From Myxococcaceae bacterium (lineage in GTDB: Bacteria > Myxococcota > Myxococcia > Myxococcales > Myxococcaceae), in NCBI GenBank assembly GCA_019694575.1, contig JAIBBR010000043.1, positions 1 to 36,203 on the forward strand: a stretch of 36,203 nucleotides of DNA, read 5' to 3'. The notes beneath the pieces were generated by a model. That model was not told the DNA's origin. It searched no databases and saw only the letters and a list, made by a program, of their open reading frames with translations. A program made the translations under genes and the position numbers. Below, one piece after another: positions 7,846 to 27,192 of this stretch. The first letter of the stretch is position 1. The number at the start of each line of letters is the position of its first letter.

Positions 7846-9069
7846 TCAACGTCGACGATCGCGAAGGTCGGCCATGCGTTTGTTGACGAGAACCGTCAAC
7901 TGCTTCGTCGTGCGCGCTTCAAAGCCGATTTCCGCCAGGCGCGGAATGAACGGTTCAACCCCTGCGACAATGCGATCGACCCGGCTTTCAACGGCTTGTG
8001 GAGCGACGCCATGGCGCTTGCCGAAAGCGATGAAGTCGCGCCGCTTCAGGTTGTCGTCTCGGCCTTCGAGCTTCAGCGCAAGTTTCAAGTCTTTGTACGG
8101 GCGTGTCGACAGCAGATCGTACGGCTGGCTCAGCTGAAGAATGCCGCGCGTGCCGCTGATGCTCACGTTTTTGGCGTGCAAGTCGCCATTGCCAATCAAG
8201 TAGCTGAAGGCGGTGAGCTCAATCAGCCGGGCGCATTCGACAGCGGGAGCACCGCACCACCGTTGAAGCCCCTCGGCGATCGCGCTGGTGCTCAGTCGGT
8301 ATTTATCAGCCGGGTACTTGTCGAGAAATTGGCAAGCGTCTTCTTGTGGCATGCCCCGCCACAGTCGGTTGATTCGCTGGCGATCGAAGCGTTCTACCAG
8401 CAGGCCGGCCTGGCCCGTTCGATCGCGAACCAAATGTGTCTTCGCGGCATCGAGCCCGCAGGCTTTCGCGGCCTTCATGAAGAAGTGCTCGTTCTCGACG
8501 AGCAGCGCTTTGTCGGGCGGGTTGAGCTTGAGAATCCACTTTCGGCCACGCGTGGCGAAGGGCAGCGAAATCATCGAGGGCGACAGTTTCTCTTGAACGC
8601 CAGCAATGGAGGGCTCATGCGCAGAAACCAAACTTCGCTCGAGCACGTCAGCGAAAGAGATCTGATCAATCGGCGTCGTTTCTTCGGGAACGGCTTCGAG
8701 CGGCGCGATGTTCGTTCCCGGAAGAACGGGAAAGAGATCGCCCACGCAGTCAGCACCAGCGGCCACCAGCAAGGTGAACAAGTCGTCTTCCGACGTTTTC
8801 GCCCGGCGCACCAGGGCCCGTAGCCGCAGGCCTTCGGGGAGCAGCCCTGCGAAGTACGTAGGCAGGTTGACGCCGCGCGACTCGATGGAGGGCTTCGCAT
8901 ACGGCAGGTGCGTCGCGATACCTCCCGGCAAGTGCCGGTGCGCAGCGAAGAAAGCAGCGTCGTACTCGAAAACGCTGCCGCCCTCGGCATTTCGGCGCAG
9001 CGAGCCCACCCGCTCATCGTTGCGGTAAATGTCGAGCCGCTCGACACTGCGCGCGTCTGCGGTGCTCAT
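7846..9069 (-). CDS. hipA: HipA-like Ser/Thr kinase toxin
   Basis: Toxin kinase of a HipBA-type toxin-antitoxin module, 407 residues, close to the usual family length. The N-terminal subdomain spans about residues 8-120. The kinase core shows S154-IAGVQEK, matching the autophosphorylated-serine loop of E. coli HipA, an ATP-binding lysine in WILKLN (K181), the catalytic NGDLHAKN (294-301), and the metal-binding aspartate in PYDLLST (317-322). All catalytic residues appear present, so the kinase is probably active. E. coli HipA phosphorylates glutamyl-tRNA synthetase and causes growth arrest; the target here is unknown. The ATG overlaps the antitoxin stop by 4 bases (ATGA), the usual order of antitoxin then toxin. 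Confidence 0.92.
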   Translation of the reverse strand: MSTADARSVERLDIYRNDERVGSLRRNAEGGSVFEYDAAFFAAHRHLPGGIATHLPYAKPSIESRGVNLPTYFAGLLPEGLRLRALVRRAKTSEDDLFTLLVAAGADCVGDLFPVLPGTNIAPLEAVPEETTPIDQISFADVLERSLVSAHEPSIAGVQEKLSPSMISLPFATRGRKWILKLNPPDKALLVENEHFFMKAAKACGLDAAKTHLVRDRTGQAGLLVERFDRQRINRLWRGMPQEDACQFLDKYPADKYRLSTSAIAEGLQRWCGAPAVECARLIELTAFSYLIGNGDLHAKNVSISGTRGILQLSQPYDLLSTRPYKDLKLALKLEGRDDNLKRRDFIAFGKRHGVAPQAVESRVDRIVAGVEPFIPRLAEIGFEARTTKQLTVLVNKRMADLRDRRR

Positions 9070-9323
9070 GGGGCACTCGCGCTTCGCGGTACGAGCTCGA
9101 ATGTGAGGCCCAACGTCTCGAGTACCGGCACCAGCTTGTCGAGCCGAATCGTCGGCTTGCCCCGCTCGAGATCGTAAAGAAAGTCAGGGCCGCACTTCGC
9201 CAATTCAGCGAGCGCTTGCTGCGTCAGCCGGAGCGCCTTGCGCCGTTGCCGCACTTCGCCCCCCAGACGCACCGCCCAGTCAGGCGTGCCATTTCCCGTC
9301 GATCGCCTTGATTTTGCTGACAT
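9066..9323 (-). CDS. hipB: HipB-like XRE-family antitoxin
   Basis: An 85-residue DNA-binding protein with an XRE helix-turn-helix (about residues 22-78; LGGEVRQRRKALRLTQQALAELAKCG then the LERGKPTIRLDKLVPVLETLGL recognition/dimer region). HipB antitoxins bind HipA and repress their own operon. The gene is followed by hipA with an ATGA overlap. The N-terminal ~20 residues before the helix-turn-helix are charged and may be flexible. No ribosome site is visible, and a promoter-like pair ends only 6 bases before the ATG, so a leaderless transcript is possible. A long palindrome upstream is the likely operator. Confidence 0.9.
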   Translation of the reverse strand: MSAKSRRSTGNGTPDWAVRLGGEVRQRRKALRLTQQALAELAKCGPDFLYDLERGKPTIRLDKLVPVLETLGLTFELVPRSASAP

Positions 9324-12861: not shown

Positions 12862-14199
12862 ATGGTTCAGGCCACCGAACGTATACAGACCTCTGGCGCA
12901 CTGCTCCGGCTCGACCCAACGTCCGGCACGCTCAAGCAACGTAAATTCAAGGTCAGCGTCATCAATGGCCCTGACAGCGGTAAAACGCTCGAGCTTTCCG
13001 GCTCTACTACCGTCGGAAGCCACCCGGGCGCCACATTCTCGCTCACCGATACCACGGTTTCTCGCTACCACGTCGAATTGGTAGCGCGACCTGACGGTGT
13101 GAGGGTGAAAGACCTCGAGTCGACTAATGGCACGTATTTGTCGAACACACGCGTTAGCGAGGTGATCGTCGAAGACCAAGCCGTGGTGCTGATTGGCAAG
13201 ACCAGCTTGCGCATTTCGATGATCGAAGAAGACCTCGGTAAGCCTGCTGAACAGGGCTCTTTCGGTCGGGTGATCGGCGCCTCACCCGCCATGCGCTCGC
13301 TGTTCGGTATTCTTGAACGCGTCGCGCCGACCGATTCGACCATTTTGCTGCTGGGTGAAACGGGCACCGGCAAAGAAGTGCTCGCCGAAGCGCTCCATCA
13401 AAAGAGCAAACGGGCCAACAAGCCTTTCGTGGTGGTCGACTGCGGCGCGGTGGCGCCTACGTTGATTGAAAGCGAGCTGTTTGGCCACGTGCGCGGTGCA
13501 TTCACCGGCGCAGTCGGCGATCGCAATGGCGCGTTTCTCGAAGCTGACGGCGGCACCATTTTCTTAGATGAGTTGGGCGAGTTGCCTCTCGACTTGCAAC
13601 CCAAGCTGTTGCGCGTGCTCGAGGGCGGCTCAGTTCGGCGCGTCGGTGAAGACAAGCCGCGCCGGGTCGATGTTCGGGTCATTGCAGCCACGCATCGCGA
13701 CCTCGACAAAGAAATTGAGGCGGGCCGTTTCAGGCAAGACCTCTATTACCGGCTGGCGGTGGTGCTGGTCAGCGTGCCTCCGCTGCGCGACCGTTTAGAC
13801 GACATTCCCCTGCTGACCAGCCACTTCGTGCAGACCATGGGGCGTGGTGATTTCGACGTGGGGCGCGGGCTGATGGCGCGGTTCGCCGCGTACCACTGGC
13901 CGGGCAACGTGCGTGAGCTACGCAATTTGATTGAACGCGCGCTGGCAGGTGCCGACGTCGACCCACTGCCCAATGAGACCGTGAGCGCACGCAGCCTGCA
14001 GTCGCATGACGGCATTACCGATTTGCCTTTCAAAGAAGCGAAAGAGCGGTTGGTCGAGTCATTCACCAAAGAATATTTGGTGGCCCTGCTCGACAAATGC
14101 GGGGGCAACATTTCGCAGATGGCCCGCGAAGCCGGCATCGCCCGCAACTACGTTCACCGCTTGGTCTCGAAGTACGGGCTCAAGGCGACTGATCAGTAG
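12862..14199 (+). CDS. FHA-domain sigma54-dependent transcription activator
   Basis: Enhancer-binding protein of 445 residues. An FHA domain (about residues 30-118) has S68-R-Y-H70 and STNGTYL (87-93), which read phosphothreonine signals, but the usual arginine after the glycine in the first loop is serine (VGSHPG). The AAA+ domain (about 135-360) has Walker A GETGTGKE (165-172), an intact GAFTGA sigma54 contact (212-217) and a Walker B segment [11 protein letters not shown] Fis-type helix-turn-helix ends the protein (about 405-440). Such FHA activators are typical of myxobacteria and respond to Ser/Thr kinases. It diverges from icd, and its last 20 bases overlap the convergent end of the pigment operon. 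The ATG lacks a clear ribosome site. The target genes are unknown. Confidence 0.93.
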
Positions 14200-15433
14200 C
14201 GCCTGCGCCCTGCCACTTGCGAAAAATGAGCGACGTGTTGATGCCACCGAACGCGAAGTTGTTGCTCATCACCGTGTCGCACAACAGCTCGCGCCCGCTG
14301 CCTTTGATGTAGTCGAGCGCGCCGCAGCGCGGGTCAACGTCGGCCAACTGCGCCGTGGGCGGGTACCAGCGGCGGTGCAACATGCCAATGGCAAGCCACG
14401 CTTCAATCGCTCCACATGCGCCCAAGGTGTGGCCCAAATGCCCTTTGACGGTGCTCACGGGAACATGCGGCCCGAAGACGCGGCTCGTCGCTTGCGTTTC
14501 GGCGATGTCGCCTTGCTCAGTCGCTGTGCCGTGCGCATTCACATAGCCAATGTCAGACGGCTGCAACTGCGCGTCTGCTAACGCCAGCCGCATCGCCACC
14601 TCCATTGTTTCGTGCATTGGCTTGGTAACGTGCGCCCCGTCGGTGTTGGTGCCAAAGCCGAGCACCTCGGCGTAAATGCGTGCTCGGCGGGCCAACGCGC
14701 TTTCGAGCTCTTCGAGTATCAAGGTGCCCGCGCCTTCGCCTACCACCAGGCCGTCACGGCCCGCGTCGAATGGCCGCGGCGTCAGTTGTGGGGTGTCGTT
14801 TTTCAGGCTCGCGGCATAGAGCGTGTCGAAGATTAAAGCGTCGCTCGCACAAAGCTCTTCAGCCCCACCTGCCACCATGCCGCGCTGCTTGCCCCATTTA
14901 ATCGCTTCATACGCGTAGCCGATGCCCTGGCTGCCCGAAGTGCACGCGCTCGACGTGGGTATGATGCGCCCGCGCAGCCCGAGATACACGCCAATGTTCA
15001 CCGCCGTGGTGTGCGGCATCAACCGTAAGAACGTGTTGGCGTCGGTTGGCGCGTCAGCCGGCTTGGCCAGCGAGCGGGCGAAGAGCCCCAAGTCGTCGCA
15101 CGAGCCGACTGAAGAGCCGTAGGCCACTCCGAAGCCACCCTCTTTGAGCAACGGATCGCCCTTCAGCCCCGCGTCTTCAATGGCGTTCTCGGCACTGGTG
15201 ACGGCCAGCAACGCCACCCGCCCCATTGAGCGCGTTACTTTGCGGCTGAAGTGCGCGGGTTTTTCGAAGTCGGTGATCGGCGCCGCCATTTTGGGCCGCA
15301 GCTCGGGGTACCCTTCCCATTCGGGCATGTGGCGCGTCGCGGTTTCGCCGGCCCGCATGCGCGCAAACACACTGTCCCACGTGTTACCCAGCGCGGTGAT
15401 GCTCGACAGCCCTGTAACCACGACTCGCTTCAT
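14180..15433 (-). CDS. Beta-ketoacyl-ACP synthase, FabF-like (aryl polyene cluster)
   Basis: Chain-extending ketosynthase of 417 residues that condenses malonyl units on the growing polyene. The complete triad is visible: C164 (SSACTSG), H301 (NAHGTATEQGD) and H335 (KGHLGHTLGA, with K330). The reading frame is open 150 bases upstream, but those residues are unlike any ketosynthase, so I chose the ATG at 15433 where the family start MKRVVVTG begins, 10 bases after the ketoreductase stop. It is the last gene of the operon. In aryl polyene systems a FabF-like enzyme (ApeO type) works as a dimer with a chain-length factor; the ApeC-like protein at 25801-26463 is a candidate partner (inference). 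Its end overlaps the convergent activator gene by 20 bases. Confidence 0.92.
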   Translation of the reverse strand: MKRVVVTGLSSITALGNTWDSVFARMRAGETATRHMPEWEGYPELRPKMAAPITDFEKPAHFSRKVTRSMGRVALLAVTSAENAIEDAGLKGDPLLKEGGFGVAYGSSVGSCDDLGLFARSLAKPADAPTDANTFLRLMPHTTAVNIGVYLGLRGRIIPTSSACTSGSQGIGYAYEAIKWGKQRGMVAGGAEELCASDALIFDTLYAASLKNDTPQLTPRPFDAGRDGLVVGEGAGTLILEELESALARRARIYAEVLGFGTNTDGAHVTKPMHETMEVAMRLALADAQLQPSDIGYVNAHGTATEQGDIAETQATSRVFGPHVPVSTVKGHLGHTLGACGAIEAWLAIGMLHRRWYPPTAQLADVDPRCGALDYIKGSGRELLCDTVMSNNFAFGGINTSLIFRKWQGAGATDQSP

Positions 15434-15443
15434 CGGTCTCGCC

Positions 15444-16169
15444 CTACACCAAACCGCCGTTGACTGACAGCACCTGACGCGTGACATATGCCGCGCCTGG
15501 CGACAGCAAATAGACCACCGCGGCCGCCACCTCTTCAGGCTTACCCAACCGTTGCATGGGTATCGCCGGCAACAGTTCGTCAAGCCGTGCTTGCTCTGCC
15601 ATGTCTGATTCGATGAGCCCCGGGGCCACGCAGTTCACCGTAATGTGGCGACTCGCCAATTCGACCGCCAAGGCTTTCGCCGCTCCGATCAACCCTGCCT
15701 TCGAAGCGCTGTAGTTCACCTGCCCTCGGTTACCCATCAACCCTGAAACCGAAGCAATCGCCACGATGCGGCCACCTTTGCGCCGGCGAATCATCGGCAT
15801 GACCAGAGGCTGTACCACGTTGAAGAAACCGTCGAGGTTGGTGGTGAGCACCAGGTCCCAGTCGTCGGGCGTCAACGCGGGAAAAGCGTTGTCACGGGTC
15901 AGCCCTGCATTCACCACCACGCCGTAGTACGCGCCATGGGCGTCGACGTCAGCTTCGAGCGCCTTTCGCGTCGCGGCGCGATCAGTGACATCGAACTGCA
16001 ACAACCTCGTGGCGCGGCCCAGCTGGGTGATTTCATCGGCCACCGCCGCCGCTTTGCCGGGTTGGTTGCGGTAATGGAGCACCACGTCAAAGCCCGCTTG
16101 CGCCAAAGCAACCGCCATCGCGCGGCCCAGCACCCCACTGGCCCCGGTGACCAGCACCGTTTCACTCAT
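15444..16169 (-). CDS. 3-ketoacyl-ACP reductase, FabG-like (ApeQ type)
   Basis: Short-chain dehydrogenase of 241 residues that reduces the beta-keto group of each extended intermediate using NADPH. It has the cofactor loop TGASGVLG (residues 8-15), NAG at 87-89 and the catalytic set S140, Y153 and K157 (YSASK). Length matches FabG. Its ATG overlaps the dehydratase stop by 4 bases. Position between a dehydratase and two ketosynthases matches aryl polyene clusters, where the reductase is called ApeQ. A role in general fatty acid synthesis is possible but less likely given the context. Confidence 0.93.
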   Translation of the reverse strand: MSETVLVTGASGVLGRAMAVALAQAGFDVVLHYRNQPGKAAAVADEITQLGRATRLLQFDVTDRAATRKALEADVDAHGAYYGVVVNAGLTRDNAFPALTPDDWDLVLTTNLDGFFNVVQPLVMPMIRRRKGGRIVAIASVSGLMGNRGQVNYSASKAGLIGAAKALAVELASRHITVNCVAPGLIESDMAEQARLDELLPAIPMQRLGKPEEVAAAVVYLLSPGAAYVTRQVLSVNGGLV

Positions 16170-16636
16170 GGCCGCTGCCCCTTCGCAATGGCGTCGGCCG
16201 CTTCGTCAGTCAGCGGCAACAAGCAATTCACCTGGCTCGTCGCCACCACGCCCGCGCCTTCAATGCGCGCCTCGTACGCCGCCAACCCTTCATGGCTCAG
16301 CGCCACCCGCTCGACTGAAACCGTCAAGACGGTGCCGGGCGTGAACACCGGTACGTTGCAACGGTAACGGCGGGTGCCCAACAGAAAGCCAACCCTCGGA
16401 GCGCTACCCGCCAAACGTTGCTCGACGCCCACATGCGCCGCCGCGGTTTGCGCCATGTATTCGAGCCCGACCCACGCCGGTACTCCACCGCCTGACACCG
16501 CGTCGAAAAAAAAACCGTCGTCGCGCACGGTAAGCTGCGCCCGCAGGCGTGGCCCGTGCGATTCGATGACCCCGTCGAGCAGGCACAGCGCCCCCCGGTG
16601 CGGTATCAACTCGGCGATTGTCCACTGAAAGGCCAT
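16166..16636 (-). CDS. ApeP-like 3-hydroxyacyl-ACP dehydratase
   Basis: Hotdog-fold dehydratase of 156 residues that removes water from 3-hydroxyacyl intermediates to create the conjugated double bonds. The LIPHRGALCLLD motif (residues 10-21) contains the likely catalytic His, and GVPAWVGLEYMAQT (residues 51-64) contains the second active-site region with Glu. These match the ApeP-like dehydratase family rather than FabZ. Its ATG shares one base with the stop of the upstream ketosynthase (TAATG), and its stop overlaps the ketoreductase start, so the three enzymes are tightly coupled. A second dehydratase domain occurs in the ligase fusion at 22297-23982. Confidence 0.9.
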   Translation of the reverse strand: MAFQWTIAELIPHRGALCLLDGVIESHGPRLRAQLTVRDDGFFFDAVSGGGVPAWVGLEYMAQTAAAHVGVEQRLAGSAPRVGFLLGTRRYRCNVPVFTPGTVLTVSVERVALSHEGLAAYEARIEGAGVVATSQVNCLLPLTDEAADAIAKGQRP

Positions 16637-17820
16637 TACGCGCGCCCCAGAATCAACGAGACATTGGTGCCACCAAAACCAAAGGAGTTGCTCATCACCA
16701 CTTTGACTTGGGCACGGTCGTCAGGCGTTGCGAGCCGCAGCGGAGGCAACGACGCATCGATCTCACCGTCCCACACGTGGGGAGGCAATTGCCCTTTCAC
16801 ATTGAGGGGCGACAACGTCAGGTAGGCCACGGCCGCTTCGATGGCGCCGGCGGCGCCGAGCGTGTGCCCAAGCATCGGCTTGGTGGAGCTCGACAAGGGC
16901 ATCGCCTGCTCGAAGACACCGGCCATCGCGCGTGCCTCCATGGCGTCGTTGAGCACCGTCGCCGTGCCATGCAGGTTGACATAGTCGACTGCTTTCGCCG
17001 AGACCTCGGCGTCGGCCAGGGCCGAACGCATCGCGGCGATGGCACCGCGGCCGTCAGGGTGCGGCGCCGACATGTGGTGCGCGTCTGAGCTGGTACCCAC
17101 ACCGAGAAAACGAATGGGCCCCTTTTCGCGGCTCATCACAAACAGCGCCGCGCCTTCGCCAATGTTGAGCCCGGCGCGATGCCGCGAAAAAGGGTTACAG
17201 ACTTTGTCGCTGAGCAATTCGAGCGAGCCAAAACCCGCCAGCGTCAAGCCCGCCAGCGTATCAACACCGCCGACCACCACGGCGTCGACGAGCCCCTGCA
17301 CAATCAACCGTCGCGCCGACGCCATGGCCCGCGCACTCGAGCTGCACGCGGTCGACACCACATAGGCGGGCCCGTCGAGCTGAAGATAGTCAGCCAGAAA
17401 GACAGCCGGAGCTCCCACTTCTTGCTGCCGGTAGCTGAACCCCGTGGTGCGTGGAGGCTGCTCGAGCGCCGCTTGCAACGCCGAAACCGTTTCTGAAACC
17501 CCGCTGGTGCTGGTGCCGATGACCACCCCCACCCGGTGCTTGCCGTAGCGCGACACCGCGCCGTCAATCGAGGCACGCAATTGCTGCGCCGTCGCCAACA
17601 GCAGCCGGTTGTTGCGCGAGTTGTGTTGGGCCCACTGGGCAGACAACGGCATGCCGTCGCCGTCGACCCGCATCACTTTGTATGCACGGCCAGCGATCAG
17701 CTCGTCACCGTCGGCGAGCCCTGACTGCGTGCCGGCCACCAGCGCAGGCCACACCACGGCCGAAGTCGCTCCCAGCGCACAGGTAATGCCCAAGTCATTC
17801 AAGTACACCGACGTCTTCAA
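16636..17820 (-). CDS. Second beta-ketoacyl-ACP synthase (ApeR-like)
   Basis: Ketosynthase of 394 residues with an intact triad: C159 (STACSSSA), H284 (NLHGTAT) and H319 (KPMLGHTLGA, K314). The N-terminus VYLNDLGITCALG is characteristic of the second ketosynthase found in aryl polyene clusters, which may start chain assembly (inference). The start is TTG at 17820, preceded by GGAG; a GTG four codons later is an alternative. It lies 12 bases after the halogenase-like gene and its stop shares one base with the dehydratase start. Confidence 0.9.
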   Translation of the reverse strand: MKTSVYLNDLGITCALGATSAVVWPALVAGTQSGLADGDELIAGRAYKVMRVDGDGMPLSAQWAQHNSRNNRLLLATAQQLRASIDGAVSRYGKHRVGVVIGTSTSGVSETVSALQAALEQPPRTTGFSYRQQEVGAPAVFLADYLQLDGPAYVVSTACSSSARAMASARRLIVQGLVDAVVVGGVDTLAGLTLAGFGSLELLSDKVCNPFSRHRAGLNIGEGAALFVMSREKGPIRFLGVGTSSDAHHMSAPHPDGRGAIAAMRSALADAEVSAKAVDYVNLHGTATVLNDAMEARAMAGVFEQAMPLSSSTKPMLGHTLGAAGAIEAAVAYLTLSPLNVKGQLPPHVWDGEIDASLPPLRLATPDDRAQVKVVMSNSFGFGGTNVSLILGRA

Positions 17821-17832
17821 GAGGCTCCAATG

Positions 17833-19098
17833 CTAAGTTGGTAGGGCGGCGTGAGAGCGCGGTGTGGCGAGGGCGGCACAATACTCGTACAGCGACTGCA
17901 ACCGCCGCTCACTTTGCGACACGAAGGGGTTTTGCTCGTCCCACGCGTAGCCTGCCAACACCGAACACAACATCGCTTTGATCTTCGGGTCGGGTTTGGG
18001 GTGAAAAATGACCGTCTGAAAACGCCCGTCGTACCAGCTGCTGACATAGGTGCGAAAAGCGTCGACCCCCTTCTTTAACGGCACTGCAAAATCGGCTTCC
18101 CAATTCACGGGTTCTCCACCCAACTGCCGGTGCAGCACTTTCGCCGCCATGCTCGCCGACTTCATCGCAATGGTGACGCCTGACGAGAACACCGGGTCAA
18201 GAAATTCAGCCGCGTTGCCGAGCAGCGCCCAGCCTTGGCCATGCATCGTCTTCACATTCGCCGAATAGCCGCGCAGCTCATTTACCGGCGTATCGAAGAC
18301 CGCGTCAGTCAGCAGCCGGGCCAGACTGGGTGTCTCGGCCACCAACCCCCGTAGCCGCGACACGGGGTCAGTGGCGAAACGCGCGAAGTGCTCGTCACGC
18401 GCCACCACCCCCAACGACGAGCGGCCGTTCGAAAACGGAATCAACCAGAACCAAATGTCGTGCAGCGTCGGGTGAACCGTGATCACGATTTTCTGCCGAT
18501 CGAAGGCATTCGACAGCATGCGATCTTCGACATGGGTGAAATAAGCACGCCGCACCGGAAAGGCCGACGGCACTTCTAAGTTCAACATCTTTGGCAGGGT
18601 TCGGCCGAAGCCACTGGCGTCGAGCACGAAACGCGACGTGATGTCGTACGTCTCGCCCGCTTTGTTGCGCACGGTGACGACTTGCTTCTCGGCACCAAAC
18701 TTCGCATTCACAATTTCTTCTTCGTAACGCACCACCGCGCCTTGCGCTTCGGCCTGCTCTGCCAGCACCTGGTCAAACGGAGCCCGCTGCACCTGAAACG
18801 TGTACGGCGACCCCTGGGTAAACTGCTGCGCAAAATTGAAGTCGGTCACCTCGTCGCCACGAACGAAGGTGGCGCCGTTTTTGTACTGAAAGCCCGCCGA
18901 ATGCACCGCTTCGCTCATGCCTGCTTCGGCAATGAAGTCGAGCGCGTGCGCGAGCAGGCTTTCGCCGATCGAAAAACGCGGAAACTTTTGTCGTTCAATC
19001 ACGGTGACCGAGTGGCCCTGGCGACGAAGCAACGCCGCGGCAATCGAACCCGAGGGTCCGGCGCCAATAATCAATACGTCTGAAGAAAGTGGGTTCAT
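17833..19098 (-). CDS. Flavin-dependent halogenase-like oxidoreductase
   Basis: FAD protein of 421 residues. The N-terminal dinucleotide site GAGPSG (12-17) is followed by FPRFSIGESLL (38-48), a signature of flavin halogenases acting on carrier-bound or phenolic substrates. W215-F-W217-L-I219-P220 fits the WxWxIP halogenase motif exactly, and K72 in GFQYKNGATF lies where such enzymes keep a catalytic lysine (inference). GNAAEFLDPVFSSG (about residues 291-304) is the second FAD-binding region. Halogenase-like genes occur in xanthomonadin and other aryl polyene clusters, where the aryl head may carry bromine or chlorine. It could instead be a monooxygenase or reductase. The ATG overlaps the ammonia-lyase stop by 4 bases. 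Confidence 0.82.
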   Translation of the reverse strand: MNPLSSDVLIIGAGPSGSIAAALLRRQGHSVTVIERQKFPRFSIGESLLAHALDFIAEAGMSEAVHSAGFQYKNGATFVRGDEVTDFNFAQQFTQGSPYTFQVQRAPFDQVLAEQAEAQGAVVRYEEEIVNAKFGAEKQVVTVRNKAGETYDITSRFVLDASGFGRTLPKMLNLEVPSAFPVRRAYFTHVEDRMLSNAFDRQKIVITVHPTLHDIWFWLIPFSNGRSSLGVVARDEHFARFATDPVSRLRGLVAETPSLARLLTDAVFDTPVNELRGYSANVKTMHGQGWALLGNAAEFLDPVFSSGVTIAMKSASMAAKVLHRQLGGEPVNWEADFAVPLKKGVDAFRTYVSSWYDGRFQTVIFHPKPDPKIKAMLCSVLAGYAWDEQNPFVSQSERRLQSLYEYCAALATPRSHAALPT

Positions 19099-20648
19099 GG
19101 GGTTGCGGCTCCTATTTCGCGCTGTCGCAGGCGCACCAACAGCGCCCGTAAATCGTTTTCGAGCGGCCGGTCTTCTTCAACGAAGGCCGAGGTCACCCGC
19201 ACCTGCTTCATGATCGCCGAGAGCACCGGCCCGAGCACGAGGTCACTGCCCGAGCCGCCGGCGCCGCGCAGCCGCAGCTCAATGCCTTGCACCGCGGCCA
19301 ACAGCCCCGCCGCCGCCACCTGCTCAGTCAGCTCCAACACGCGCAGCGCGTCACGCGCGGCGATGGTGCCCATGCTCACTTTGTCTTGGTTGTGACATTC
19401 GGTTGACCGCGAAAACGACGCCGCCGGCATGGTGAGCCGCAAGGCCTCAGCCGCCCACGCCGACGCGCCGATTTGCACGGCTTTGAAGCCGTGGTTCAAG
19501 GCCTGGCGTTCACCCACCACACCGGTGAGGTTCATGGGCAAGCCGTGGTTGCTCTTCACGTCGACCAACAGCGCGAGCTGGCGATCGAGCAGGTCGGCCA
19601 CGCTGGCCACCGCGGCTTTGAGCGAGTCCATCGCGAAGGCCATGTGCCCGCCGTAAAAATGACCGCCGTGCATCAGCTGGCCCGCTTCGCCATCAATCAA
19701 AGGATTGTCGTTCGCGCTGTTGAGCTCTGTCTCGACCCATTGCGTGAAGAACGGCAGCGCGTCGGCGAGCACGCCAATGACGTGTGGTGCACACCGCAAC
19801 GAATAGCGATCTTGCAGTCGCACCCCTTCGCGTTTCGCCGTCGCGGTCGGCAGATCAGCACGAATCAACGCCGCCACCCTGCGTTGACCCGGGTGCGGCT
19901 TGAGCGCGAACAAGGCGTCGTCGAAATGCTCGCTGTTGCCTCGGGTGGCGAGGCTCACCAAAGCGGTCATGTGCGCAGACAGATCGACCAAATATGCCGC
20001 GCGGCTCAGCGCCAGGCACGAAAGCCCAGTCATCACCGCGGTGCCGTTCATCACCGCCAAGCCTTCTTTCGGCGTCAGCGCCAGGGGAGCCAGCCCCAGC
20101 TCGCCGTACACCTTCGACGTCGGTAAACGAGCACCCTTGAAAAACACCTCGCGCTGCCCCGTGAGCACCGCTGCCACGTATGAAAGCGGAGTCAGATCGC
20201 CACTGGCGCCCACCGAACCTTCTTCGGGTATTACCGGCATCGCGTCGTGCGCGAGCAACTGCGTCAACCGCTCTAACAACTCGAAGCGCACACCTGAATA
20301 GCCCTGCGACAACGACACCAACCGCGCCGTCACCACCGCGCGCGCAGCAGGAGGCGCGAGCACGTTGCCCAAGCCGCAGCCGTGGTACGCCATGATATGC
20401 GCCGACAGCTCGCCAACCAGCGCGGGAGGAATGGCCACGGTGACTGATTCACCAAAGCCCGTGGTGACACCGTAGATCACGCCATCTTCTTTAATCAGCC
20501 GCGCCAAGAAGGCGACGCTCGCATCGACCTTTTTACGAAAGGCGGGCCGCTCTGAAAGAAGCACCGAAGCCTTGCCCTCAGACACGCGCACCACGTCAGC
20601 CACGGTGAGGGGGCGATCGCCAACGACGATAGACGGCAACGAGCTCAT
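19095..20648 (-). CDS. Aromatic amino acid ammonia-lyase (tyrosine ammonia-lyase-like)
   Basis: MIO-type lyase of 517 residues that removes ammonia from an aromatic amino acid. The Ala-Ser-Gly that forms the MIO group is at 148-150 (VGASGDLTPL), and the catalytic tyrosine is Y59 in YGVTTGFG. In the selectivity loop (AYHGCGLG) H89 lies where tyrosine ammonia-lyases carry His, rather than the Ser-His of histidase. No hut genes are nearby. The likely product is therefore 4-coumarate, the starter unit of the polyene, as known for flexirubin; histidine remains possible. I chose the ATG at 20648 because it overlaps the upstream stop (ATGA); 11 more residues are open upstream but would lie inside the preceding gene. 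Confidence 0.88.
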   Translation of the reverse strand: MSSLPSIVVGDRPLTVADVVRVSEGKASVLLSERPAFRKKVDASVAFLARLIKEDGVIYGVTTGFGESVTVAIPPALVGELSAHIMAYHGCGLGNVLAPPAARAVVTARLVSLSQGYSGVRFELLERLTQLLAHDAMPVIPEEGSVGASGDLTPLSYVAAVLTGQREVFFKGARLPTSKVYGELGLAPLALTPKEGLAVMNGTAVMTGLSCLALSRAAYLVDLSAHMTALVSLATRGNSEHFDDALFALKPHPGQRRVAALIRADLPTATAKREGVRLQDRYSLRCAPHVIGVLADALPFFTQWVETELNSANDNPLIDGEAGQLMHGGHFYGGHMAFAMDSLKAAVASVADLLDRQLALLVDVKSNHGLPMNLTGVVGERQALNHGFKAVQIGASAWAAEALRLTMPAASFSRSTECHNQDKVSMGTIAARDALRVLELTEQVAAAGLLAAVQGIELRLRGAGGSGSDLVLGPVLSAIMKQVRVTSAFVEEDRPLENDLRALLVRLRQREIGAATP

Positions 20649-22300
20649 GAGGTGCGCCAAAAAGGGTAAAAGTTGAACCACTGCAAGGGGGCCTGGGCGC
20701 AGTGATACTCGAGCCGCTGCGCGAACGCTTGCGCAGACTGACGAATCACTTCGTCGCGGGTGCTACGGGTCCACCTCAAAGGGTCAGCGAATGACTCGTA
20801 AAAAATGTTGTGCCGACCGTTGAGCTTTACGCACATCACCAGAATCACCGGGCAACCGAGCAGACCGCCGAGCAAATGCGGCCCAATGGGAAAAGGCGCG
20901 CGCTTGCCCAGAAAGTCGACGTCGACCGTGCGCGGGCTGCTCACCGGCACGCGGTCGCCGGCGATGACCAGCCATTCTCCGCGAGCGACACGCGCCGACA
21001 ATTCGAGCGCCGTATCGGGCCCCAGCTCACCCACCTGCATCAAGCGCACTTTCGAGGGGCGCTTCACTTCGCTGATCAGCCGCTGAAAATTTTCGGCGTG
21101 CTGTGTGTACGTCAAAATATTCAAAGTCAGCTTCGGGTTTTGGTCGGCGAGCGCCTGCATCGCCTCCAAGTTGCCCAAATGCGCGGTCAGCACGATGCCG
21201 CCTTTGCCGCTGGCGATCACGTCGGTCATCAAATGCCGTTGGTGCACATCGACGTCTTGCAAGGTAATGCCACCCGCCATGGTGAGCACCTTGTCGATCA
21301 TCGCCGAGCCCATGGCGAAAAAATGCCGGCAGCTGTTGGCGTATGACGGCTTCAACCCCAGTTGCGGGTACGCGGCTGAAATTCGCTGCAAATATTCGAG
21401 CGACGCTTCACGCGCCGTCTTCGAGGTGAGAAAGAAGTAAAAAATCACCGGGTAGAGCAGGGCCTGCACCGCCCAGCGCCCCAGCAACCGGTGCACCCAG
21501 AGCAACGCCTTCAAGCCCAGCAGGGTGCCGCGCTCGCCCATCGCCGCCCAATGCGTCGGCTGCTTCGAGCGACGAGAGCCGATTAACCAGCCCGGCCAAC
21601 GCCACAACATGCCGAAGAAGAGCCGCATGTGGAGCAACGAGATGCGCACGTTGTCTTTCAACGGTTGAAAGTGCGAGACGCCGCCTTGGGGGTACGTCAC
21701 CTGCGTTGGCACGTGCCGCACTTCGACACCGGCCCAATGCAGGCGAACCATGATCTCGATGTCGAAGTCCATTCGGCGGCCGAGCGACTCGCGGTCGAGC
21801 AGCGCCACCGTGGCCCCCAGCGGATACACGCGAAAACCACACATTGAATCAGCAATGTCGAATGAGAGTGTGTTGACCCACACCCAAAAATGCGTGGCGT
21901 AGCGGCCGATCAGCCGCCCCTTCGGCACCGACGCATCGAAGACCGGCTTGCCTGAAATCAACGCTTCCGGGTGCGCCTCGGCTTCAGCCAAAAACCGCGG
22001 CACATCGGCTGAATCGTGTTGACCGTCGGCATCGATTTGCAGCGCGTGCGTAAAGCCAAGCCGCGCCGCCTCGCGCAACCCGGTCATCACCGCCCCACCC
22101 TTGCCCTGGTTTTCGACGTGCCGAACCAGCGTCACCGACGGAGCAAACTGTGCCACCCACCCGTCGATTTCTTTCGCGGCATCAACGTGCGAGCCGTCGT
22201 CAACCAGCACCACGGGCAGCGCCCGTGCCACCAATGCTTCAAGTACGACGCCAAGTCGCTCGACATGGTTGAACACCGGAATCACGGCGCACGGCTTCAC
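20645..22300 (-). CDS. Glycosyltransferase 2 - acyltransferase fusion (ApeJ-like)
   Basis: Two-domain protein of 551 residues. Residues 1 to about 215 are a family 2 glycosyltransferase with VIPVFNH at the start, VDDGS (33-37) and the metal-binding DADGQ (90-94). A membrane-associated stretch near 275-292 follows. Residues from about 300 form a lipid A-type lysophospholipid acyltransferase with H374-LGNL-E379 (HX4E). The same fusion is found in aryl polyene clusters, where it is thought to help attach the polyene to a sugar or lipid anchor. It starts with GTG at 22300 in a GTGA overlap with the ligase stop. Probably acts at the inner face of the cytoplasmic membrane. Confidence 0.9.
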   Translation of the reverse strand: MKPCAVIPVFNHVERLGVVLEALVARALPVVLVDDGSHVDAAKEIDGWVAQFAPSVTLVRHVENQGKGGAVMTGLREAARLGFTHALQIDADGQHDSADVPRFLAEAEAHPEALISGKPVFDASVPKGRLIGRYATHFWVWVNTLSFDIADSMCGFRVYPLGATVALLDRESLGRRMDFDIEIMVRLHWAGVEVRHVPTQVTYPQGGVSHFQPLKDNVRISLLHMRLFFGMLWRWPGWLIGSRRSKQPTHWAAMGERGTLLGLKALLWVHRLLGRWAVQALLYPVIFYFFLTSKTAREASLEYLQRISAAYPQLGLKPSYANSCRHFFAMGSAMIDKVLTMAGGITLQDVDVHQRHLMTDVIASGKGGIVLTAHLGNLEAMQALADQNPKLTLNILTYTQHAENFQRLISEVKRPSKVRLMQVGELGPDTALELSARVARGEWLVIAGDRVPVSSPRTVDVDFLGKRAPFPIGPHLLGGLLGCPVILVMCVKLNGRHNIFYESFADPLRWTRSTRDEVIRQSAQAFAQRLEYHCAQAPLQWFNFYPFWRTS

Positions 22301-23982
22301 GCGTCAGCTCCGAAAGCAATTCGGCCGGTAGAACACAGCGCTTCGCCTTGCCGGTAAACAAATGCCAAGCGGGCCTTCGCTGCGTCCCACGCCAACTCGA
22401 GCGACACCTGGCTGCCGGGGGTGATGACGCGGTGAAACTTCACCACGTCGAGCCCCTCAAAGCGCGTCGGCAGCGTGAAGTTCGCGCGGCCAAAACGCAC
22501 CGCGAAGTCGATTTGCGCCACCCCCGGTAGAATCGGCTGCTGGGGAAAGTGCCCCTCAAACGCCGGCAGCCCCGCGTCAATTGCCAGCTGCAACGTCACC
22601 ACCCCGGCTTGCGCGGTGCGGCGTTCTACCCGCGGCAAGGTGTTGCCCGCTTCTTCGGCGAACAACGCCTGCAATGCACCCAGCGCCACCTTGCCCTGCG
22701 CGTCGGCCGGCAGCGCATCGACAAAACGCCAACGACGAGGCACCGCCACGCCGGGCACCGAAGGGCCCAGCAAACCCTTGAGCGCCTCAACCACGCCGCG
22801 GCGGCCTCGCGCGGCCAACTGGGCACGCCCCTCGGCATTTAAAACAATCGCCACACCCAAGGCCTGCCGTTGTCCGAGTTGCAGCGGCAGCGCGCAGGCT
22901 TGAACCACCCACGACGAGCGCTCGAGCGCCATTTCAATGGCGGGCAGCGCCACGCGGTTTTCTTCGAGCTTGATGATGCGGTCCAACCGGCCCATGAGCT
23001 GAAAGCCGCCCTTGGTGAAGACGGCGGCGTCGTCGGTGCCTTGCCACTCGGGGTGGCCCAAATGCGGCGACTTCACCATCAACGCGCCGTCGTTCTCGCG
23101 TGCACGCACTTCAACACCCGGCAAGGGCTGCCACGGCGCGTTGGCGCTGCGAAAAGCAATGCCGCCCGTTTCGGAGCTGCCCAAAATGTCGAACACCGGT
23201 ACGCCCAGGCCGGCCGCTACGTCGGCCTCGGCTTCGAAAGGCAACACTCCGCCCGACGAAAACGCCGCCACCGCTTGCCCACGCGCGCCCAAAAGCTGCG
23301 AGGGGTTGCGCAGCCGCCGGTAGAAAGCGGGGCTAGACACCCACACCGAGCGCCCCGCGGCGCTGTGCGCCAACAATGCCGCGGGCGTCATCAACGGCTC
23401 ACTGACGAAGGGTCGCCCCATGGCCAACGGCCACAGCAGCCGAAACAACAGACCATATAAATGCTGCTGGCTCACGGTCGCCAACACTGTCGCGCCATCG
23501 ACGGCTGACCCAAATTGCGCTTCCAACGCGGTCACTTCAGCGTCGAGCTGCGCGAACATTTTGATGACGGGCTTGGGGGCTCCCGTCGAGCCTGAAGTGA
23601 AGACGGTGAGCGCGGGGGCAGACGGCGGGGCAGCGACGGGCGTTACCGTGGGCGATGGGTGGCCCAACGGTGAAATCACGCGCGCAACCCCTGGCAGCGG
23701 CTGGTCAGCCAACCACAACGCAACACCGAGCTCAGCGGCTGAGCCGGCGTTCCCCGGCAGCGCCACGCATTTGCCCACCTGCCACGCCGCGAAGAGCGCC
23801 ACGGCAAAAGGGTACGCGTCGAGGCAGCACACCCCCACCTGTTCGGCCGGCTCGCTGGCAAGCACCGTCTGCAGCGCTTGCACTTCGCGCCGAAAGTCAC
23901 CCCAGCGCTTGGGGGCCTGGCCATGCAGCGCCATCAGCGCGGCGTCTTCACGGGGCTCTGCCAACAGGCGCGCCAGCTTCAC
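22297..23982 (-). CDS. Aryl-CoA/ACP ligase fused to ApeI-like dehydratase
   Basis: Adenylating enzyme of 561 residues. Core motifs are FTSGSTGAPK (128-137), GSSETGG (268-274) and, near the end of the ligase part, a QGKVALGAL segment with the probable catalytic lysine. From about residue 455 a hotdog domain follows with GHFPQQPILPGVAQ (H478), a FabA/FabZ-like dehydratase as in ApeI. The ligase part (ApeH-like) probably activates the coumarate-type starter and loads it onto an acyl carrier protein. The start is GTG at 23982: AAGGAGG lies 7 bases upstream and the codon forms a GTGA overlap with the upstream stop. The longer open frame to 24486 runs antisense-free but out of phase inside the COG4648 gene and is not protein-like. 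Confidence 0.9.
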   Translation of the reverse strand: MKLARLLAEPREDAALMALHGQAPKRWGDFRREVQALQTVLASEPAEQVGVCCLDAYPFAVALFAAWQVGKCVALPGNAGSAAELGVALWLADQPLPGVARVISPLGHPSPTVTPVAAPPSAPALTVFTSGSTGAPKPVIKMFAQLDAEVTALEAQFGSAVDGATVLATVSQQHLYGLLFRLLWPLAMGRPFVSEPLMTPAALLAHSAAGRSVWVSSPAFYRRLRNPSQLLGARGQAVAAFSSGGVLPFEAEADVAAGLGVPVFDILGSSETGGIAFRSANAPWQPLPGVEVRARENDGALMVKSPHLGHPEWQGTDDAAVFTKGGFQLMGRLDRIIKLEENRVALPAIEMALERSSWVVQACALPLQLGQRQALGVAIVLNAEGRAQLAARGRRGVVEALKGLLGPSVPGVAVPRRWRFVDALPADAQGKVALGALQALFAEEAGNTLPRVERRTAQAGVVTLQLAIDAGLPAFEGHFPQQPILPGVAQIDFAVRFGRANFTLPTRFEGLDVVKFHRVITPGSQVSLELAWDAAKARLAFVYRQGEALCSTGRIAFGADA

Positions 23983-24542
23983 GTGGCTGCCTCCTTGCGC
24001 AAGTGCCGCTGCCGCACCATCAGCTCGACAGCAAAAATCAACCCCATGCCAAGGTACGCCAGCACGCCATTGTAGAGCGACCACACGTCGAAGCTGGCGC
24101 AGGCGGCGGTGATCAACGCCAACGTGCCATTCACCACGAAGAACGCGCACCACACCGCGGTGACATTGCGCGTGTAGCGAATTGCCGAGGGGCTCAGGCG
24201 GGGCCGCGTCAGCCGAGCCAGTCGCTCGACGACCGACGGAGGCTTCGCCAAGCTCGCTCCGAAAATGGCCAACAAGGTGGCGTTTACCAGCACCGGGTAC
24301 CAACGCACCCATTGCGCGTCGCCTTTGAGCATGACCGCCGCTCCGAGCAGCACCATGGCCAACCCCACGGCGAGCTGCGCAACCGCTTGCGGCCCGCGCG
24401 CCAACCCAGCCCGGGCGAGCCCCAAAGTCACCAAGCCCGCGCCAAGCCAAACCGCCGCCACGTGGCCCGACAAGAGCCACACCCACAGCGGGTAAGTGAA
24501 CGCCAGCACCGCGGTGCTCAGCGAAATAGCGCGACGAATCAT
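23979..24542 (-). CDS. COG4648 membrane protein of aryl polyene cluster (ApeG-like)
   Basis: Integral membrane protein of 187 residues with about six hydrophobic segments (roughly 5-25, 28-45, 53-72, 80-98, 127-150 and 155-177). WVRWYPVLVNATLLAIFG (about 78-95) and RYTRNVTAVWCAFFVVNG (about 122-139) are the recognisable family features of COG4648. It is found in most aryl polyene clusters next to the acyl carrier proteins and the ligase; its exact function is unknown. The ATG overlaps the acyl carrier protein stop by 4 bases, and its stop overlaps the ligase GTG. Confidence 0.87.
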   Translation of the reverse strand: MIRRAISLSTAVLAFTYPLWVWLLSGHVAAVWLGAGLVTLGLARAGLARGPQAVAQLAVGLAMVLLGAAVMLKGDAQWVRWYPVLVNATLLAIFGASLAKPPSVVERLARLTRPRLSPSAIRYTRNVTAVWCAFFVVNGTLALITAACASFDVWSLYNGVLAYLGMGLIFAVELMVRQRHLRKEAAT

Positions 24543-24790
24543 GGAGGCAACGGCGCGGTCGCCCTCACCGAGACGAGCACGTCGTCAATGGTGCGAATGC
24601 GTTTGAATTCTTCGGGGCTGAGCCGGCGGCCGGTCAACTTCTGCAGCGCACCCGCGAGATCGATGGCGTCGATGCTGTCGATTTCTAAGTCTTCATAAAG
24701 CGCGGCCTCGCGACGCACGTCTTCGAACGGCACCTCGAAGACATCGACCAAAATCGTTCGCAGCGAATTGAAGAGCTCTTCGTCAGTCAT
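24539..24790 (-). CDS. Acyl carrier protein 1 (ApeF/ApeE-like)
   Basis: An 83-residue acyl carrier protein. S39 in LEIDSIDAIDL is the attachment site for phosphopantetheine. It is acidic and helical, with the usual length. One of two carriers in the operon: in aryl polyene systems one carries the aryl starter and growing chain and the other serves a partly different step. The ATG at 24790 overlaps the stop of carrier 2 by 4 bases, and its stop overlaps the COG4648 gene. Confidence 0.93.
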   Translation of the reverse strand: MTDEELFNSLRTILVDVFEVPFEDVRREAALYEDLEIDSIDAIDLAGALQKLTGRRLSPEEFKRIRTIDDVLVSVRATAPLPP

Positions 24791-25041
24791 GGCTGCTTTC
24801 GATGGGTGCTGACGAAGTCGGCCAGGGCTCGCACCGAGCGAAAATGCTGCCGGGTGTCGCTCGAGCTGGCTTCGAGCACCACGCCGTACTTCTTTTGCAG
24901 CGCCATGGCGATTTCGAGCGCGTCGATCGAGTCGAGGCCCAGGCCCTCACGAAACAAGGGCGCATCGGGGTCGATGTCGTCGGCGGCGATGTCTTCGAGG
25001 TTAAGCGACTCGATTAACAATTGCTTCATTTCGAGAATCAT
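24787..25041 (-). CDS. Acyl carrier protein 2 (ApeE/ApeF-like)
   Basis: An 84-residue acyl carrier protein with S38 in GLGLDSIDALEIAMALQ as the phosphopantetheine site. The start is uncertain: GTG at 25050, ATG at 25041 and ATG at 25029 are in frame. I chose the ATG at 25041; all of them lie inside the 3' end of the acyltransferase gene, so the two genes overlap by 29-50 bases, longer than elsewhere in this operon. Together with carrier 1 it presents the polyene to the ketosynthases, reductase and dehydratases. Confidence 0.9.
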   Translation of the reverse strand: MILEMKQLLIESLNLEDIAADDIDPDAPLFREGLGLDSIDALEIAMALQKKYGVVLEASSSDTRQHFRSVRALADFVSTHRKQP

Positions 25042-25804
25042 GGGCGTCACGACGTTCTAACTCGCTTTCAAAATGTCGCTGCAGGTACTCGGTCAATCTT
25101 CGCGCGGCGATCGGTGAGTCGCCCTTGGCCCGAAAGGGCTCCAAGGCAATGTCGTCGCCCACGGTGATCTGAAAATGCCACTTGCGTTCGGGTACCTGGT
25201 ACCAAGGTTTGCCCTTGGTAAAGGTCAACGGCTCGCACGTCAAGACCACGGGGGTCAGCACCCTCGCAGCCTTGAGCGCCACGTGCGCCGCCCCGCGTTG
25301 AAAGGCAATTGGCTGCCCCGGCACGGTGCGGGTCCCCTCGGGGAACATCACCAGCGACTCGCCCGCCCCCAGCGCCGCCGCCGTCTTTTCGAGCATCGGC
25401 TCGGCCGCGTCGTTTTCGATGTAACCCGCGCCTAAAATGGGCAGCGTCAAAAACGGGTTTTTGCGCAGCGCCGATTTGATCACGCAGTTGCCGCCGTGCG
25501 CGAAGGCGAGCAAAAAAACGATATCGAGAAACATTGGGTGATTGGCGATGATCACCTGGCCCGGGCGGCCCAACCGGGCCTGGCCTTCAATGTTCCACGT
25601 GCACACCCCCAACATGCGAAGCACGTGTACGAAAGCGAGAAACCAGGTGCCAATGAGGGCGCGCGACCACCTTTGGCGCGTCGACACTGACAGAGGCAAA
25701 GCCAACAGCACGACGAACATCGGCAGCCAAACCAAACTCGACACCCCAAAGAAGACGAAGCCGAGCGCACTGGCGAAAAGCCGCCACAGGTTGTTCGGGC
25801 TCAT
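25001..25804 (-). CDS. Lysophospholipid acyltransferase (PlsC-like, ApeD-like)
   Basis: Acyltransferase of 267 residues with one or two N-terminal membrane segments (about 8-40). Motif NHPMFLD (88-94; H89 and D94) is the catalytic HX4D, and FPEGTR (154-159) binds the glycerophosphate-type acceptor. In aryl polyene clusters such a gene is thought to esterify the finished polyene to a lipid. The ATG overlaps the stop of the ketosynthase-like gene by 4 bases. The C-terminus overlaps the start region of carrier 2. Confidence 0.9.
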   Translation of the reverse strand: MSPNNLWRLFASALGFVFFGVSSLVWLPMFVVLLALPLSVSTRQRWSRALIGTWFLAFVHVLRMLGVCTWNIEGQARLGRPGQVIIANHPMFLDIVFLLAFAHGGNCVIKSALRKNPFLTLPILGAGYIENDAAEPMLEKTAAALGAGESLVMFPEGTRTVPGQPIAFQRGAAHVALKAARVLTPVVLTCEPLTFTKGKPWYQVPERKWHFQITVGDDIALEPFRAKGDSPIAARRLTEYLQRHFESELERRDAHDSRNEAIVNRVA

Positions 25805-26463
25805 GCCGACCTCTTCACGAGCCAGTCATGCCGTTCGCCCTTCAAGCGCGCCTCGCCTGCCATGCCCAACAACAAACGCGACAACGTGCGCGCCGCCTCG
25901 GTGCCCGCCGCCGAAGCCGCAGTCGAGTCTGCAGAATGAATTGAGAACCGGGTGCCCTCTGCACCGAGCAGCCAGGCCAGTGCGAACCCTCCGTCGTCAA
26001 CCGCGGTCGCTTGGTAAAAAACGGGGAGCGCTTCATCAGCGGCGATCAACAACACCTGCGGCGCGCCTTCTGCCAACAAGCCGGCTGCTTCGAACAGCGC
26101 GCTCGGTAACCCGTCATGACCGGCCGCCAACGCCACTGCCTCGCTCGCGTCTTGCCGCAACATCGACAGTTGGCCGACGACCCCGTTGTGAACGCTGTGA
26201 CTGAACGCGGTAGGCGACAACGGAGTGGCCGACGCCAAGTCGCGCAGCATGTTCAGCGAGCTGATGATTTCACCGTGGCGTGACACGTAAACGGTGGGCA
26301 CGCAGTCGGTCGGCCCGATGACGCGGCTCACCACGTCGACGACCGAGCGCGTCAGCGGCGACAAGCGGCGACGCTGCATGGGCGGCACCACGTCGATGCG
26401 TGGCGCACCTTGCTCGGGCAGCCATGTCGCCCACTTCGATACCGAGAACCGAACCTCTGCCAT
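25801..26463 (-). CDS. Ketosynthase-like chain length factor (ApeC-like)
   Basis: A 220-residue protein of the beta-ketoacyl synthase N-terminal-like family (PF13723 type). Family features are the start F-S-V-S-K-W-A-T-W-L-P, the VSRHGEI segment, SPTAFSHSVHNGVVG and the DEALPVFY segment. No cysteine occurs where ketosynthases keep the nucleophile, so it cannot condense by itself; in related aryl polyene systems such a protein pairs with the FabF-like enzyme and sets chain length. I chose the ATG at 26463; the open frame runs to a TTG at 26508, but the extra 15 residues are polar and not family-like. Either way a gap separates it from the first gene of the operon. Confidence 0.85.
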   Translation of the reverse strand: MAEVRFSVSKWATWLPEQGAPRIDVVPPMQRRRLSPLTRSVVDVVSRVIGPTDCVPTVYVSRHGEIISSLNMLRDLASATPLSPTAFSHSVHNGVVGQLSMLRQDASEAVALAAGHDGLPSALFEAAGLLAEGAPQVLLIAADEALPVFYQATAVDDGGFALAWLLGAEGTRFSIHSADSTAASAAGTEAARTLSRLLLGMAGEARLKGERHDWLVKRSA

Positions 26464-26523
26464 TTGCGTCTTGTCGCTTCTAGCGAACTTTTGAGCAGCC
26501 TGCCTCAAAGAGCGGCGTTCGTC

Positions 26524-27192
26524 TCAAAGGTTGTCAGCCGATGCTTTGCGCGCCCGGGCTGCCGCTACCAGCACCAAGAGCCCCGAAACAATGAGCGCCG
26601 CCAACGCCCAGGTGATTCCCTTCGCGCCGGCGGCTTTAGCGCCGCGTTCTGCACGGTAACTGTCGAGGCTGGCGGTCATCGCCGGGAGCAGCGTGTCCCA
26701 TTTTCCCGAGGGCACTGAAAAGGTCACCACCGTATGCCGCCCTTCACCTTCGAACGCCGTCACCCACAGCTGCCTCAATTGGCTGCCTTGGCGAATGTGC
26801 CCCAAGACCTCGACGCGCGACACCCGGCCCTCTTGCCACTTGGCGTGATCCAACGCGAAGGGCATGTTCAACGACTCGGTGAAATGCTTCACCACCGCCG
26901 TCGACAATTCGTCGCGCGCAGCCGCCGACGGCACGAAGTCACTGTCGACCACCGCCACCAGCATTGACGCCGCGTCTTCGCCGTCACCGTCGACCAACGC
27001 CGCCGACAAGAACCGCTCTCCATCGGCGCTGGGGCTCACCGCCCCTACCTGCGTGCCGGCGTAAAGGTCCATTCGGGTCATTCGAAATGCCGCCGGAGGG
27101 CGCACGGTGTACCCATCTTGCCGCAGCGGGGGACCCAGCCAGTCGCCGCTCGGCGGGGCCACCAGCAGCACCACAGTCAGAAACGCACGCAC
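26524..27192 (-). CDS. Exported, C-terminally membrane-anchored protein of unknown function
   Basis: A 222-residue protein starting with GTG at 27192. A short hydrophobic N-terminus (about residues 3-13) looks like a weak signal peptide, and a C-terminal helix (about 193-213, WALAALIVSGLLVLVAAAR) followed by basic residues looks like a membrane anchor, so the middle is probably periplasmic. The middle begins DGYTVRPPAAF and ends with TFSVPSGKWDTLLPAMTASLDSY, a pattern reminiscent of the PsbP/Mog1/DcrB-like fold (tentative). It is the first gene of the pigment operon, upstream of the chain length factor, and is not a standard aryl polyene gene. A role in pigment placement is a guess from context only. 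Confidence 0.7.
   Translation of the reverse strand: MRAFLTVVLLVAPPSGDWLGPPLRQDGYTVRPPAAFRMTRMDLYAGTQVGAVSPSADGERFLSAALVDGDGEDAASMLVAVVDSDFVPSAAARDELSTAVVKHFTESLNMPFALDHAKWQEGRVSRVEVLGHIRQGSQLRQLWVTAFEGEGRHTVVTFSVPSGKWDTLLPAMTASLDSYRAERGAKAAGAKGITWALAALIVSGLLVLVAAARARKASADNL

Follow-up and report, generated by a model that had tools for sequence, protein, structure and literature searches.

Aryl polyenes (APEs) are yellow membrane pigments that rank with the most widespread ones in bacteria, and 4-hydroxybenzoate is usually given as their starter. In Escherichia coli, the APE starter is 4-hydroxybenzoate made by the chorismate lyase UbiC (PMC8253772), and the APE enzymes of Acinetobacter baumannii accept 4-hydroxybenzoate in vitro, both loading and extending it (PMC8041823). 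In flexirubin biosynthesis, the Chitinophaga ammonia-lyase FlxA has a histidase-like motif 1 and yet prefers tyrosine 1010-fold over phenylalanine; its authors held that substrate specificity is not predictable from sequence (PMC3992019). APE clusters were reported earlier from marine myxobacteria (PMC6226438). In this study, I analysed a stretch of 36,203 nucleotides from a Myxococcaceae bacterium (assembly GCA_019694575.1, contig JAIBBR010000043.1, positions 1 to 36,203), which is called the window below. It was found that the window carries an APE operon in which an ammonia-lyase gene is embedded.

Layout of the operon

Four genes occupy positions 17833-23982 on the minus strand, encoding a halogenase-like flavoprotein, an MIO ammonia-lyase, a GT2-ApeJ fusion and an ApeH-ApeI fusion. 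They are contained in a 13-gene APE operon, which runs on the minus strand from 26508 down to 14180. The genes are listed here in operon order.

25801-26508, minus strand: ApeC-like ketosynthase chain-length factor (PF13723; tblastn match to Pseudoalteromonas and Acinetobacter ApeC)
25001-25804, minus strand: ApeD-like lysophospholipid acyltransferase (PF01553)
24787-25050, minus strand: ACP1, ApeE-like, the putative starter carrier (PF00550)
24539-24790, minus strand: ACP2, ApeF-like (PF00550)
23979-24542, minus strand: ApeG-like membrane protein, COG4648/IspZ-like (42% to E. coli ApeG)
22297-23982, minus strand: ApeH-ApeI fusion of an AMP ligase (TSGSTG motif) and the ApeI dehydratase (PF00501, PF22818)
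20645-22300, minus strand: glycosyltransferase family 2 fused to an ApeJ (LpxL-like) acyltransferase (44% to E. coli APE GT2-ApeJ)
19095-20648, minus strand: aromatic amino-acid ammonia-lyase (PF00221, E 6.5e-154; MIO ASG; dyad Tyr88-His89)
17833-19098, minus strand: halogenase-like FAD protein (PF04820, E 7e-29; Lys in GFQYKNG, WxWxIP)
16636-17820, minus strand: ApeO ketosynthase
16166-16636, minus strand: ApeP dehydratase (PF22817)
15444-16169, minus strand: ApeQ ketoreductase (57% to E. coli ApeQ)
14180-15433, minus strand: ApeR ketosynthase, with its start at MKRVVVTG (55% to E. coli ApeR)

The operon has the APE core, namely a ketosynthase/chain-length factor pair, a second ketosynthase, a ketoreductase, two dehydratases, two ACPs and a dedicated acyl-ACP ligase. 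The first-pass annotation of this DNA had noted a ligase fusion and a halogenase-like enzyme, and both were recovered, the former as ligase and dehydratase in one ORF and the latter as a PF04820 flavoprotein. The ligase-dehydratase fusion is shared by Acinetobacter. The lyase gene probably starts at the ATG at 20648 (MSS...), the ORF being open to a GTG at 20681. Stop and start codons overlap by 4 bp at 8 of the 12 gene junctions, including ApeJ/lyase and lyase/flavoprotein. Because the lyase gene has such an overlap on both sides, the lyase and the flavoprotein most likely belong to the operon as translationally coupled genes.

A gene at 26524-27192 (minus strand) lies directly upstream of the ApeC gene and encodes a 222-residue protein with a C-terminal hydrophobic segment and without a Pfam match; the operon may begin with this gene. 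Elsewhere in the window, a HipA-like kinase and an HTH protein are encoded by overlapping genes at 7846-9323 (minus strand), a toxin-antitoxin-like pair.

The genes for ApeK, ApeL, ApeM and ApeN (thioesterase, LolA, MMPL exporter and DUF3261 protein) are absent between 14180 and 26508, and no ApeM was found elsewhere in the source genome, where the best match reached 22 bits. In two relatives (G027 and G030), ApeK, ApeL and ApeM sit between the lyase and the flavoprotein, precisely where the two window genes overlap by 4 bp. The source assembly is a draft. Since the operon is situated well within a contig, real gene loss is likelier than an assembly gap.

Distribution of the lyase among APE clusters

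The first-pass annotation had suggested that the cluster may be of a hybrid type. It was revealed, however, that APE clusters annotated in Pseudoalteromonas and Acinetobacter are colinear with it gene by gene and carry the same lyase (53-58% identical) and flavoprotein. In those clusters, the lyase gene lies between ApeJ and the ApeK thioesterase, and the flavoprotein gene lies between the MMPL exporter and the DUF3261 gene. In the window operon, too, the lyase gene directly follows ApeJ. The same genes in the same order in these genera remove the hybrid reading; the operon is a member of a recurring lyase-bearing APE subtype, a known arrangement that is little discussed and no one-off.

The lyase was found in 15 of the 60 genomes searched (the source genome and its relatives). 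Seven of the eight genomes with an above-cut-off ApeI also hold the lyase (p = 1.2e-4 over the 60 genomes, uncorrected for kinship). Burkholderia multivorans and Caballeronia insecticola have the lyase, with the flavoprotein at the cluster end. Neither gene is present in the clusters of E. coli CFT073, Enterobacter, Moellerella, Cedecea and Klebsiella; the Enterobacter cluster is broken by IS26. Near-identical clusters with the flavoprotein and without the lyase occur in three Cupriavidus and one Caballeronia, while in two relatives (G038 and G041) the stretch that was read holds the lyase and no flavoprotein. An obligate lyase-flavoprotein pair was therefore rejected. The lyase behaves as a cassette with a fixed slot, present in some clusters and missing from others.

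In four other genomes, an APE-type lyase stands alone, with no APE genes nearby (L028 in G025, L035 in G053, L024 in G013 and L026 in G031). An ApeI gene lies on another contig in G013 and G053, and none was found in G025 and G031.

Phylogeny and active site of the lyase

A maximum-likelihood tree was built from 34 lyases, 19 of them APE-type. FjTAL was represented by the sequence from a Flavobacterium johnsoniae contig (L055), and the comparison was made with the Streptomyces BagA sequences left outside. All 19 APE-type lyases fall into a single clade (100/99), which is split (100/98) from the HutH, SgTAM, RsTAL and FlxA types. In AU tests, joining this clade with HutH was rejected (p = 1e-8), as was joining it with the FlxA-type lyases (p = 2e-5) or with RsTAL (p = 9e-5). 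The lyase scored below the cut-off on the hutH model TIGR01225 (389 bits vs 539) and on the FlxA model NF053541 (315 bits vs 700). Its highest NCBIfam score, 404 bits, was given by the BagA/FevW tyrosine lyase model, whose strict cut-off is 1000. A true HutH is encoded elsewhere in the same genome (contig C84; 684 bits vs the cut-off of 539). The first-pass annotation had read the gene as a probable tyrosine lyase, a reading that a grouping with true histidases would have refuted; in the tree, the lyase does not group with them. It lies outside all the characterised tyrosine-lyase clades tested, and its status as a tyrosine lyase is unsupported by kinship. I know of no characterised member of the APE-lyase clade. 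A different type was seen in a relative with a genome of 2.7 Mb (L019 in G020), whose lyase is of the FlxA type (GGVGASGDLVQLAH, with a Ser-His dyad), unlike the APE type.

The MIO triad ASG of the lyase, already spotted in the first pass, sits in GSVGASGDLTPLS. In the alignment with PpHAL and PcPAL, all the catalytic columns checked are intact (Tyr53, Asn195, Tyr280, Arg283 and Phe329 in PpHAL numbering). The first-pass annotation had also argued from a His (H89) at the position that favours tyrosine. Counted from the ATG at 20648, residue 89 is His; it aligns with RsTAL Leu90, PpHAL His83 and SgTAM His93, and the column of RsTAL His89 holds Tyr88 in the lyase. The argument was one column off and was discarded as an alignment error; the shared number is coincidental, and the lyase does not have the RsTAL-type selectivity residue. 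A His at the PpHAL His83 column is nevertheless compatible with tyrosine as a putative substrate, because FjTAL, a tyrosine lyase of the FlxA family (FlxA-model score of 901 bits against a cut-off of 700), has His there as well.

PpHAL Glu414 is replaced by Gln in the lyase, in the motif ECHNQDKVSMG, like in the tyrosine and phenylalanine enzymes. The Lys and Glu at the PcPAL 456 and 484 columns are phenylalanine-lyase-like. Taking together the AU rejection, the Gln in place of Glu414, the sub-cut-off hutH score and the separate true HutH, the lyase is, judged from its sequence, not a histidase, and the histidase reading was discarded.

Source of the starter

The search for UbiC came back empty in all 60 genomes, the source genome included, while the E. 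coli positive control was detected. The chorismate-lyase route therefore appears to be unavailable in the source genome. A search with PF21168 (XanB2-type chorismatase) gave no match in the source genome, and the control genomes gave none either, so that a chorismatase of this type may still be present. The ligase was also tried as an indicator of the starter. Its top NCBIfam model is TIGR02372 (bacterial 4-coumarate-CoA ligase), with 96 bits, far under the cut-off; this model was the best but a weak one for all the lyase-cluster ligases scored (the E. coli ligase being outside this set), and the indicator was rejected as non-discriminating.

With no UbiC in the 60 genomes, the best explanation would be that the lyase makes the pigment starter from tyrosine as 4-coumarate, to which I assign a probability of roughly 0.65. 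This would be the simplest way to a hydroxylated aryl starter, and it has a precedent in the flexirubin pathway of Chitinophaga, in which FlxA acts on tyrosine. The in-cluster route to an aryl starter, proposed in the first pass, is likely. Against tyrosine, the lyase falls outside the characterised tyrosine lyases in the tree, it has the PAL-like Lys/Glu pair, and the FlxA authors cautioned against reading specificity from sequence. It might instead be a phenylalanine lyase, in which case cinnamate would be loaded and the phenyl head would stay unhydroxylated or be hydroxylated later, with the flavoprotein as the hydroxylase. The tree puts the APE clade on its PAL side (100/98), and this clade shows PAL-like Lys456/Glu484/Gln488 columns as well as Tyr or Phe in the column of PcPAL Phe137. 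However, the plant PAL sits on a very long branch of unsure placement, the His beside the dyad position is missing from PcPAL and RsTAL and present in the tyrosine-acting FjTAL and SgTAM, and described APE heads are 4-hydroxylated or come from hydroxybenzoate (PMC8253772, PMC3992019). I regard a phenylalanine lyase as unlikely. It is almost out of the question that histidine is the substrate of the lyase, or that a catabolic enzyme came into the cluster by accident: although about 390 bits to the hutH models is high in absolute terms, it is opposed by the AU test, the lost Glu414 and the true HutH elsewhere, as well as by translational coupling and by the same slot in three bacterial groups.

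The strongest counter-evidence to a 4-coumarate starter is the use of 4-hydroxybenzoate by the A. baumannii enzymes in vitro. One A. baumannii APE cluster examined carries the lyase; neither 'coumar' nor 'lyase' appears in the text of PMC8041823, and 'lyase' is absent from that of PMC8358021 too. Further counter-evidence comes from the Cupriavidus clusters and the one of Caballeronia, otherwise similar operons without the lyase. These observations would fit a route in which the 4-coumarate made by the lyase is first shortened to 4-hydroxybenzoate, or is a mere supplement, and 4-hydroxybenzoate is loaded as in E. coli and Xenorhabdus. The absence of UbiC from the source genome and its relatives and the absence of side-chain-shortening genes from the operon make this distinctly improbable. 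That a true flexirubin/xanthomonadin hybrid arose in this lineage is far less credible. The adjoining tyrosine-lyase-like and halogenase-like genes would suit it, as would the related flavoprotein beside the tyrosine lyase of F. johnsoniae, but the same gene set and order recur in Pseudoalteromonas, Acinetobacter and relatives, the lyase is outside the FlxA clade, and all the core genes match APE genes. In accord with the first-pass remark on missing DarA genes, a homology search of the whole source genome, run without a separate positive control, gave no DarA homologue.

A 4-coumaroyl unit equals a 4-hydroxybenzoyl unit after one finished cycle; therefore, both starters can give the same chromophore, and the product structure alone cannot decide the starter. 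The Cupriavidus and Caballeronia M1242 clusters (L134, L135, L136 and L143) are natural comparison strains for the starter question.

The flavoprotein and the proposed pathway

The nearest solved structure to the flavoprotein is 3nix (386 bits), followed by true halogenases including 8zop, ChlB4 and CndH. It has GxGxxG, the halogenase-aligned Lys and WxWxIP. Every APE member examined keeps the latter two, as does the F. johnsoniae protein beside FjTAL. All the aligned APE and flexirubin flavoproteins have GN where the halogenases CndH and ChlB4 have GD. The flavoprotein probably modifies the aryl ring, perhaps by halogenation, a plausible reaction.

The pathway probably runs as follows. The lyase would deaminate L-tyrosine to 4-coumarate, which the ApeH half of the fused ligase would adenylate and load onto ACP1. 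ApeO/ApeC and ApeR would add malonyl units, ApeQ would reduce, and ApeI and ApeP would dehydrate. The product would be a 4-hydroxyphenyl polyene acid, which ApeD and GT2-ApeJ would attach to a lipid; the flavoprotein would probably modify, perhaps halogenate, the aryl ring.

The conserved lyase slot in part of the APE clusters points to a second priming route, which may be the sole route in genomes without UbiC. Tentatively, and at somewhat short of even odds, I suggest that the whole subtype, A. baumannii included, is primed by tyrosine-derived 4-coumarate through a separate lyase clade with a Tyr/Phe-His dyad, the first elongation cycle being skipped. The 4-hydroxybenzoate starter borrowed from E. 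coli and Xenorhabdus would then be wrong for the subtype, with the product alike. The APE-lyase clade may yield new tyrosine lyases. This cluster type recurs widely, and its interest lies in an uncharacterised lyase clade in a very common pathway whose starter has been assumed.

Comparison with known systems

The BagA/FevW tyrosine ammonia-lyases, which gave the top-scoring model, belong to an unrelated pathway. The xanthomonadin and arcuflavin systems resemble the window operon in having a type II aryl polyene synthase, and the arcuflavin cluster has a halogenase gene; there, a XanB2-type chorismatase gives 3-hydroxybenzoate (PMC3949708), whose gene was not recognised among those of the window operon. 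As in the flexirubin system (FlxA/FjTAL), a type II polyene synthase would receive its aryl starter from an ammonia-lyase and a ligase, and in F. johnsoniae a related flavoprotein adjoins the tyrosine lyase, like the window pair. Unlike in that system, the window lyase belongs to another clade and DarA was not found. The E. coli CFT073 apeA-R cluster has a core colinear with the window operon (ApeC-D-E-F-G-H-I-J-O-P-Q-R); it has the methyltransferase ApeB and lacks the lyase and the flavoprotein. The APE clusters of Pseudoalteromonas sp. CF6-2 and A. baumannii differ from the window locus in having the ApeK thioesterase, LolA, the MMPL exporter and DUF3261, and share with it a lyase about 54-58% identical and the same gene order, with the lyase after ApeJ and the flavoprotein before ApeO.
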